Shown here piece by piece: positions 24,484 to 26,330 of a stretch of DNA of 50,852 bases (its first letter is position 1; the number at the start of each line of letters is the position of its first letter). The stretch is from positions 12,032 through 62,883 of the IMG/VR virus record IMGVR_UViG_3300030106_006257; one strand, written 5' to 3'. Made by a program: the position numbers and the translations under genes. This stretch comes from a virus. The notes beneath the pieces are model-generated. The model made no database searches, was not told where the DNA came from, and saw nothing but the letters and a program-made list of their open reading frames with translations.

Positions 24484-25608
24484 CTATTCGTCTTCAGAGC
24501 CCTGATTCACATCATAGAACGCCGTGGCATCTCCCTCTCGCGATGAGAACTTTTGTATAACCTCTTCGTCCATGACTTCTAAAATACGAGATTTAAATTT
24601 ATCGTCGCCTAAAAGTTCAAGCCATTTAGAAGATTGAAACTTCTGTTCTGTTCCATCTTTATATTTGAGTATATACCATGCGCCCTTTTGCTCGACATGT
24701 TCCGAGTTCTTAATCGCGCCCAGCCAACTCTGTTCGTCTTGAATGACAGCGTCTTCCGTGCCCCACATAATTTTAAAGGCACACTCTCTCCCTTCTGTAC
24801 CAAAGCGAGACTTTTTAATCCTAGCCTTAACCTCAGACCCGACCCTGTACCCTTTATCGTCCATCACATAAGATTTCTTGGCTCTTCGAGGATAGAGCCA
24901 AATACGTAAAGAATATGCGTATGGCAGAGCTTTGCCTCCAGGCGTAACGTGCGGGTTCAAAAGCAAGTCGGCTGTATTATTCGAAATATTTGTCTTAAGT
25001 TGGTTCAGAGCCAAAATTGTACTGTTCGCGTTGGCCACTGGTATAACGAGCTTCTTCATACCTTTAGACAGAATTCTTGCCTTGACGGCCATAGAAGACT
25101 GTGGGTTGAAATCGCCCTCGGTGTCGGAAACACAAGGAGTGTTCGCAACGCTATCCCAAATAAAGAAAACCCTCTCTTCGTGGCTGATAATTGTCTCAAT
25201 GGATTCTAAAACAAACTCAACCGATTCCGCCTGAACATAGATCAGGTCTTGCAGGGACACACCCGTCTTTTCCAAAAAGTCTGAGTCGATCGCACTCTCG
25301 GAGTCAAAGTATACTACTTTCAGTCCCTTTTTCTGTGCGTTCGCTGCTATCTGTGCCGCCATATAACTCTTGCCGGTAGACTCAAGCCCAGCTATTTCAA
25401 CAATTTTGCCGAGTGGAATCCCTGCGAGCTTCCCCTTGCAAATTATTCCATCCAACCACCTAGAGCCGGTTGAAACCCACTCTTTAACATCGGTTGGGTT
25501 ATCATCTTCCAATGAATAGGCCACTTCAGAACCCGATTTTTTATTTAGCATCTTTCTGATATCTTCGCTGGACAATCCTCCAACTCGTACTTTCTGTGAC
25601 CTAGCCAA
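24484..25608 (-). CDS. RecA/UvsX-type recombinase
   Basis: A 374-residue recombinase. Walker A is GLESTGKSYMAA, the Walker B-like strand VFFIWDSVAN is followed by the conserved helix, and L2 region NQLKTNISNN and TPGGKALPYAY are typical of RecA. It coats single-stranded DNA and drives strand exchange in recombination-dependent replication and repair. The start is TTG 25608 with AGGAGG four bases upstream; the ATG at 25638, which would add ten residues, lies inside a hairpin and lacks a ribosome site. C-terminus is long and acidic, as in RecA. Confidence 0.9.
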   Translation of the reverse strand: MARSQKVRVGGLSSEDIRKMLNKKSGSEVAYSLEDDNPTDVKEWVSTGSRWLDGIICKGKLAGIPLGKIVEIAGLESTGKSYMAAQIAANAQKKGLKVVYFDSESAIDSDFLEKTGVSLQDLIYVQAESVEFVLESIETIISHEERVFFIWDSVANTPCVSDTEGDFNPQSSMAVKARILSKGMKKLVIPVANANSTILALNQLKTNISNNTADLLLNPHVTPGGKALPYAYSLRIWLYPRRAKKSYVMDDKGYRVGSEVKARIKKSRFGTEGRECAFKIMWGTEDAVIQDEQSWLGAIKNSEHVEQKGAWYILKYKDGTEQKFQSSKWLELLGDDKFKSRILEVMDEEVIQKFSSREGDATAFYDVNQGSEDE

Positions 25609-25631
25609 TGTTCCTCCTATAAAATAAAATT

Positions 25632-25661
25632 GAGGCATCTGTAACCCATGCCTCCCTGCGG
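25632..25661 (-). ncRNA. Structured RNA element, copy A (upstream of recA)
   Basis: On the minus strand CCGCAGG is followed by a 7-bp hairpin, GAGGCAT-loop GGGTTACAG-ATGCCTC, then an A/T-rich stretch and the AGGAGG of recA. A second copy at 26285-26315 has the same flank and loop but two changed base pairs (A-T to G-C, T-A to C-G), both compensated. It could be an mRNA regulatory hairpin or an attenuator; a weak T-rich tract follows. Confidence 0.6.
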
Positions 25662-25670
25662 CTGGACACG

Positions 25671-25967
25671 CTACTCTTCATCTGAATAGTCGGAATCCAC
25701 AGAATTTTTAACAGCTTCGTTGACTTGGTTCACAATTGCTGCCTCGTTGGCCTTTTCAGCAAGGCTCTCAGTCTTTGAAACTTCCACGACAATTTCTTCC
25801 GTGGCCTGCTCCTTGGACTCTTCAACAAGTTCTGCAATTGCTTGCGCAACGTCCTCATCGCCCTCAGTGGAACCGTTGCCGCCAAGATAAAGGGCCCAGA
25901 GGCCCACGCTCACAACGGCTACTCCGATCACGAGAAAGGTGCTCTTATTGTTTTTAATAAAATCCAT
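25671..25967 (-). CDS. Small membrane-anchored acidic protein
   Basis: A 98-residue protein: short basic start (MDFIKNNKS), one transmembrane helix about residues 10-29 (TFLVIGVAVVSVGLWALYLG), then an acidic, helical, periplasmic-facing tail (VAQAIAELVEESKEQATEEI). N-in, C-out topology follows the positive-inside rule. It lies two bases after a lipoprotein gene. Such a pair, membrane-anchored plus lipoprotein, resembles a two-component spanin system, but spanins usually sit by an endolysin; here the neighbours are recA and the ssDNA-binding protein. Confidence 0.5.
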   Translation of the reverse strand: MDFIKNNKSTFLVIGVAVVSVGLWALYLGGNGSTEGDEDVAQAIAELVEESKEQATEEIVVEVSKTESLAEKANEAAIVNQVNEAVKNSVDSDYSDEE

Positions 25968-25969
25968 GA

Positions 25970-26260
25970 TTATCCTCCCGTTCCAGTGCCGGTGGTTGTC
26001 GTGCCAGTGGTTCCAGTAGTGGTCCCTGTGGTCGTACCAGTGGTGGTCGTACCAGTGGTGGTCCCAGTAGTGGTCCCAGTAGTGGTAGTCACACCGGTGG
26101 TCGTGCCAGTGGTAACAGCGGTAGTGGTGGACGAATAAACAGCCGAATCAGCCGTATCATCTTCCTTGTCGCCGCATCCCGACAGAAAAGCTACTCCCAT
26201 GCAGAGTGCAACTCCGAAAATTGTGCCATAAACATGGTCACGATTAATAAATTCAAACAT
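25970..26260 (-). CDS. Lipoprotein with Thr-Gly repeat tail
   Basis: A 96-residue protein. A signal with hydrophobic core (TIFGVALCMGVAFLSGC) ends in the lipobox L-S-G-C, so it should be lipidated at Cys29. After a short acidic linker, more than half of the mature protein consists of Thr and Gly in runs such as TTTGTTTGTT. The DNA tract is a low-complexity imperfect repeat. The tail may be glycosylated or form an extended linker through the periplasm (inference). It follows the ssDNA-binding protein gene and a structured RNA element, and is co-transcribed with the membrane protein downstream. Confidence 0.55.
   Translation of the reverse strand: MFEFINRDHVYGTIFGVALCMGVAFLSGCGDKEDDTADSAVYSSTTTAVTTGTTTGVTTTTGTTTGTTTGTTTTGTTTGTTTGTTGTTTTGTGTGG
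25981..26120. repeat. Low-complexity Thr/Gly-coding repeat tract
   Basis: About 140 bases built from imperfect copies of hexamers like ccagtg and gtggtc (Thr and Gly codons on the minus strand). Prone to slippage and copy-number change; it is coding, not a CRISPR array. Confidence 0.7.
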
Positions 26261-26284
26261 ACTTATCTCCTTTAATAAAATAAT

Positions 26285-26315
26285 GGGGCACCTGTAAACC
26301 CGTGCCCCCCTGCGG
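26285..26315 (-). ncRNA. Structured RNA element, copy B (upstream of lipoprotein gene)
   Basis: CCGCAGG then stem GGGGCAC, loop GGGTTTACAG, stem GTGCCCC on the minus strand, placed after the ssDNA-binding protein stop and before the lipoprotein's AGGAG. It has the same layout as copy A: stop codon, CCGCAGG, hairpin, A/T stretch, ribosome site, start. Confidence 0.6.
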
Positions 26316-26330
26316 TGGTATTCTGCTGTT

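Follow-up and report, generated by a model that had tools for sequence, protein, structure and literature searches.

The operon encoding the single-stranded-DNA-binding protein (SSB) and recombinase of an uncultivated phage (IMG/VR record IMGVR_UViG_3300030106_006257) contains two copies of an H-type pseudoknot of ~34 nt, a conserved cis-acting RNA element that recurs behind SSB or SSB-like genes in two unrelated phage lineages. The element is anchored to the stop codon of the gene in front, and a role in forming or protecting mRNA 3′ ends is tentatively favored.

Two copies of an H-type pseudoknot in the SSB–recA operon

In the window (the whole 50,852-nt stretch of DNA analyzed), genes encoding the SSB, two ORFs of 96 and 98 aa, a RecA/UvsX-like protein, a 5′-3′ exonuclease, and a DnaB-like helicase lie on the minus strand. 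The original prediction described two intergenic segments of the same layout within this operon, and both are present on the minus strand (Table 1). A covariance model built from 49 copies, with the window and its nearest relatives left out, recovered both segments at E ~1e-12 (57.3 and 54.7 bits; E 2.1e-13 and 9.5e-13), and the next-best match in the window reached 11.5 bits (E 0.2). Recovery of both copies by this independent model rules out a chance repeat. No other good copy was present in the window or the rest of the whole 62.9-kb record. The mechanically called recA ORF begins at 25638, within the recA-side stem; the real start is likely the TTG at 25608 behind GGAGGA, as placed by eye.

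Table 1. Positions of the two pseudoknot copies and the adjacent genes in the window
Feature	Position	Strand	Remarks
gp32-like single-stranded-DNA-binding protein gene, 262 aa	26331–27119	−	PF08804, E 1.6e-11; phrog_1192, E 1e-15
SSB-side copy, whole	26281–26318	−	between SSB stop and lipoprotein gene
SSB-side copy, CCGCAGG GGGGCAC GGGTTTACAG GTGCCCC	26285–26315	−
SSB-side S1 5′ arm, ACC	26314–26316	−	SSB stop codon 14 nt upstream
SSB-side L1, GCAGG	26309–26313	−
SSB-side S2 5′ arm, GGGGCAC	26302–26308	−
SSB-side loop, GGGTTTACAG	26292–26301	−	S1 3′ arm, 26298–26300
SSB-side S2 3′ arm, GTGCCCC	26285–26291	−
Small lipoprotein-like ORF, 96 aa	25970–26260	−	between both copies; lipoprotein reading by eye; no Pfam or PHROG match
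98-aa ORF	25671–25967	−	directly before recA-side copy; stop 8 nt from S1; no Pfam or PHROG family match
recA-side copy, whole	25628–25664	−	between 98-aa ORF and recA
recA-side copy, CCGCAGG GAGGCAT GGGTTACAG ATGCCTC	25632–25661	−
recA-side S1 5′ arm, GCC	25660–25662	−	pairs with loop GGU; first pair covaries in relatives (A-U, C-G, G-C, U-A)
recA-side L1, GCAGG	25655–25659	−	C, G, G invariant in 197 contexts
recA-side S2 5′ arm, GAGGCAT	25648–25654	−
recA-side loop, GGGTTACAG	25639–25647	−	S1 3′ arm, 25644–25646; L3 loop, 25639–25643
recA-side S2 3′ arm, ATGCCTC	25632–25638	−	A and then a run of A/U without G follow
recA/uvsX-like gene	24484–25608	−	PF00154, E 8.3e-38; phrog_97, E 8.8e-54

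When each copy was folded alone its energy was unremarkable (z of −0.13 and −1.26), so that the evidence for structure is comparative rather than energetic. The two double stem changes on which the original prediction based its claim of selection on an RNA structure (A-U to G-C and U-A to C-G) are both present in the window copies, and that claim is now strongly supported by hundreds of covarying copies found in related phages. The predicted 7-bp hairpin required revision: its helix is real (S2, RRGGCNY) but belongs to an H-type pseudoknot, and the CCGCAGG box, correctly described as part of the shared layout, also provides the 5′ strand of a second helix formed with the loop, a role that had been overlooked. 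In this second helix (S1, XCC:GGY, 3–5 bp), the three leading bases of XCCGCAGG are matched by GGY in the loop.

Scanning of IMG/VR with the pattern CCGCAGG...GGGTT(N)ACAG yielded at least 120 stretches, and a single pattern is common to those whose stem is good. Tabulated against each other, box and loop show that the first base of the box tracks the fourth base of the loop (ACC-GGGU, CCC-GGGG, GCC-GGGC, and TCC-GGGA). A second scan with S1 left free returned helices of differing sequence (CCCA/UGGG, CAGC/GCUG, CCGC/GCGG, and GGGC/GCCC). S1 pairing played no part in choosing copies for the tabulated sets of either scan. Across the distinct copies collected from IMG/VR (at least about 300), S1 covaries through A-U, C-G, G-C, and U-A. 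In 54 diverse copies, 99.3% of the pair cells of S1 and S2 were standard, and the covariation score was 0.42 as compared to 0.19 for shuffled and at most 0.16 for slid alignments. In copies of a 16-nt-loop class, S1 is 5 bp long and all five pairs are changed on both sides (covariation of 0.43 versus 0.15). Pairs of G and U in S2 are one-directional (86 G-T versus 2 T-G, and A-C never), as expected for an RNA of the coding strand. Box position 4 and loop position 1 were G with G in 166 copies, A with A in 27, and A with G in 4, base counts that suggest a homopurine pair (G.G or A.A), probably stacked between the helices and closing S1.

The conserved core of the element reads GCAGG - RRGGCNY - G...A(C/U)AG. 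Little or no variation is seen in C-A-G-G of L1, which is (G/A)CAGG across copies, in the middle pairs of S2 (G-C, G-Y, and C-G), or at the end of L3, A(C/U)AG. The sequence of S1 and the length of the loop are unconstrained, and L3 tolerates whole inserted hairpins, with loops of up to 58 nt. On a Flavobacteriales MAG contig (L242, 444–1130), three successive elements surround the genes for a cold-shock protein and a 73-aa product; one of them has an inserted hairpin in its 58-nt loop.

Association with SSB and SSB-like genes in two unrelated phage lineages

Among 96 loci found by DNA pattern alone, without any protein seed, 93 encode a gp32-like SSB and/or RecA. Where both genes occur in order, 151 copies lie between them and two outside, with none on the opposite strand, and each SSB–RecA interval holds zero to four copies. 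Likewise, all 87 model matches in 79 recA-seeded loci have the orientation of recA. No more than four copies were present in any whole record (up to 193 kb). The genes between SSB and RecA vary and include an FKBP-type isomerase, a 161-aa family (f161), small lipoproteins, and membrane proteins. Four loci (L101, L043, L062, and L102) are exceptions to the usual placement, and in two others (L245 and L246) copies lie behind a MoxR-like ATPase gene. In the nearest 183-kb relative of the window phage (L244, 2258–2500), the copy lies just before a PIN-PhoH gene and not behind an SSB gene. With a promoter-like sequence and a small open frame overlapping at this site, the element could be either a leader or a 3′ UTR.

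The 16-nt-loop class was found in phages lacking the gp32/RecA module, in the gene order helicase - nuclease - Sak4 - 180/195-aa gene - element - uracil-glycosylase-like/polymerase, the uracil-glycosylase label being a putative one from sequence reading. Forty-six of 92 copies with an upstream gene follow a member of one of two mutually related 180/195-aa families (hhalign probability of 81%). The predicted structure of the 180/195-aa protein has a beta-beta-beta-alpha-beta-beta order, as in an OB fold. A PDB fold search with this protein gave no significant match, and a search of a viral structure library returned DUF669 proteins and annotated SSBs. The upstream gene of this lineage is thus predicted to be DUF669-like with an SSB fold, and the modeled structure suggests that it serves as the SSB. 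In five loci of this kind (L370, L371, L374, L375, and L376), a tRNA-like sequence was recognized by eye directly 3′ of the element behind the SSB-like gene; that of L371 appears by eye to have an Asn anticodon.

Exact-pattern searching of GTDB species genomes gave 17 matches, with convincing elements in two contigs (L227 and L242); both are MAG contigs that may be of phage origin, and a bacterial origin of the element was rejected on this basis. Searches of isolate phages by blastn, with a consensus of each class as query, returned chance-level matches only. In cultivated relatives (Flavobacterium phage immuto and Microcystis phage Mel-JY01), SSB and recA are 2–9 nt apart with nothing between them; without spacer or element in these phages, the pseudoknot is best regarded as an addition to the module and dispensable for it.

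Stop-codon anchoring and a possible 3′-end role

In the class with 9–11-nt loops, the distance from the upstream stop codon to S1 has a median of 8 nt (IQR 7–11), and S1 still lies mostly within 14 nt of that stop where the next start is more than 60 nt away or was not found (63 copies). This short distance even with a far next start, together with the tRNA-like sequence that follows some copies, indicates that the element keeps a constant relation to the preceding gene, with the upstream stop codon as its anchor. Copies of the 16-nt class lie farther from the stop and at a looser spacing (median of 40 nt). The end of the main-class pseudoknot is followed by an A/T-rich spacer, with a median of 26 nt to the next start; the second lineage lacks such a layout. 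In L016, L039, L074, L084, and L096, a possible mini-hairpin, TCCnnnnGGAGAT, comes after the stem and would cover the Shine-Dalgarno site.

Sister phages without the element carry GC-rich hairpins, often terminator-like, at the same place behind the SSB gene. A simple terminator test was passed by 18 of 36 element-free post-SSB regions against 0.4 expected, a few of the 36 being misfiled carriers of the element, and by 39 of 82 element-bearing regions against 1.0 expected. In about a quarter of copies, runs of more than two T residues are absent from the first 10 nt of the tail. The element and terminator-like hairpins therefore exchange positions behind the SSB gene. In both loop classes the element is followed by A (about 80%) and then by a pyrimidine stretch almost without G, which in the 16-nt class is often of a CUCU type. 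Behind the SSB stop of L128 and L132, a strong terminator-like hairpin precedes TTGACA-N17-TATAAT, a promoter-like arrangement with which recA seems to have its own promoter. In two element-free relatives, ACCGATGGCAGA...CTGCC(A/G)CATTTTT lies behind the SSB stop (L145, 5939–6025; L197, 1213–1300) and may be a diverged pseudoknot, with AACC/GGUU in L145.

Stop-codon anchoring and the terminator-like hairpins at the same place in sister phages point to an intercistronic punctuation mark acting in 3′-end formation or attenuation, rather than primarily a leader element. This reading survives best but falls somewhat short of probable. These phages place the pseudoknot directly behind the stop codon of the SSB gene and of the small genes after it, such that it would fold once transcription has passed the SSB stop. 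It might then cause partial termination or pausing of transcription at the pyrimidine tail, and/or, once the A/U spacer has been cleaved, shield the 3′ end of the upstream RNA. The outcome would be abundant, stable SSB mRNA uncoupled from a lower level of recA mRNA. Such a role is reasonable given the case of T4 gene 32, whose mRNA, the most stable of T4, undergoes RNase E cleavage next to the stop codon (PMC3014915). Counting against it are the copy before the PhoH gene in L244 and the element-free module of the cultivated relatives. Of the three roles originally suggested, an attenuator or processing signal is thus the best supported, and a binding site for a translational repressor has become less likely.

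A plain intrinsic terminator does not account for all copies, given the tails without a T run and those of the CUCU type. The element resembles intrinsic terminators and 3′-end hairpins in having a GC-rich helix directly behind a stop codon and a T-rich tail, but differs in its second helix, invariant loop bases, A before the tail, and often mixed-pyrimidine tail. Moreover, the invariant CAGG and ANAG resemble a binding core and are required by neither a terminator nor a roadblock. Since two unrelated SSB families share the same core, we consider that the element is recognized through a ligand or host factor, or is read as a structure in its own right, and disfavor the SSB as binder. It is possible, though unlikely, that the 34-nt pseudoknot is a binding or roadblock core new to phages, which would sense a ligand or host factor or resist nuclease or polymerase, and which unrelated phages would have linked independently to SSB genes to set the SSB:recombinase ratio during replication.

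A translational operator of the T4 gene 32 type, in which the SSB or another protein would nucleate on the pseudoknot, spread over the A/U spacer, and cover the next ribosome site (lipoprotein or recA), appears unlikely. The gene 32 operator of T4 and RB69 consists of a pseudoknot of about 28 nt followed by an A/U-rich stretch and the ribosome site (PMC535899), a layout shared by the main-class element, which also resides in the operon of a gp32-type SSB. The short distance to the next start fits this arrangement, as does a possible mini-hairpin sequestering the Shine-Dalgarno site in one subgroup (TCCTTATGGAGAT). However, the T4 operator lies in the SSB leader, whereas in the loci examined the phage element is found behind the SSB gene and never upstream of it, and a plain T4-like leader operator was rejected for this reason. 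Several copies are followed by an apparent tRNA gene instead of a ribosome site, or by a gap of more than 60 nt, and the same core occurs in phages with an SSB of a different family.

The invariant core (L1 CAGG, the middle of S2, and the end of L3), free S1, and insertion-tolerant L3 have the usual look of an aptamer, and two unrelated lineages keep the same core, as would be expected of a tiny riboswitch-like element in which binding of a ligand or host factor sets downstream readthrough or translation. This is nevertheless rather unlikely, as the neighboring genes are set by DNA replication and position rather than by one metabolic pathway, no Rfam riboswitch resembles the element, and alternative expression-platform pairing is not enriched. 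Antiterminator pairing between a C-rich stretch behind the stop and the S2 5′ arm, suggested by some copies, was rejected: it was found in 12 of 246 cases as compared to 9.6 of 246 with permuted partners.

Placement of copies in one orientation behind the stops of a variable gene set (FKBP, f161, lipoproteins, and others) would also suit a structured single-stranded DNA site for recombination, cassette exchange, or replication, akin to integron attC or to a DNA reading of STAXI, with one copy per gene inserted between SSB and RecA. The one-way G-U pairs of S2, which fit a coding-strand RNA, and a tail and stop-codon distance that obey transcript logic make this quite improbable. A recoding signal, in which a pseudoknot ~8 nt past the stop (a spacer similar to those of known readthrough and frameshift pseudoknots) would stimulate readthrough or frameshifting of SSB, is very improbable and was rejected, because no conserved reading frame continues beyond the stop (frames 0, +1, and −1 fuse downstream in 27, 20, and 18 of 179, with no frame preference and median extensions of 21, 20, and 19 codons), the spacer varies freely, and the next gene has its own ribosome site.

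Relation to known RNA elements and significance

No Rfam (15) family, RNA leaders and riboswitches included, matched the window at the gathering threshold, and only chance-level matches were seen at E up to 10. The SAM-II and preQ1 riboswitches are compact H-type pseudoknots of similar topology and small size; the phage element differs in lacking both an Rfam sequence match and linkage to metabolic genes. The sequence string of the element was not found in the literature searched. The nearest kind described there is STAXI (RF01728), tandem pseudoknots near SSB genes of Enterobacteriales, often with UUCG loops and proposed to act as RNA (PMC2864571). Both are repeated pseudoknots near SSB and other DNA-handling genes. 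In contrast to the tandem units of STAXI, the phage elements are single units separated by genes (close pairs are rare; L087 and L212), have the core GCAGG/ANAG, and occur in uncultivated phages rather than in Enterobacteriales. The RF01728 covariance model gave no match at E ≤ 10 in four records (G000, G002, G004, and G007). A new H-type pseudoknot mRNA element with at least about 300 distinct copies is well supported; Rfam 15 does not contain it, and no cultivated phage was found to carry it.

The tie of this element to SSB genes of two unrelated families would offer a concrete case of mRNA structure setting the amounts of replication proteins. Together with the T4 gene 32 operator and STAXI, it forms part of an unexplained pattern of pseudoknots near SSB genes.
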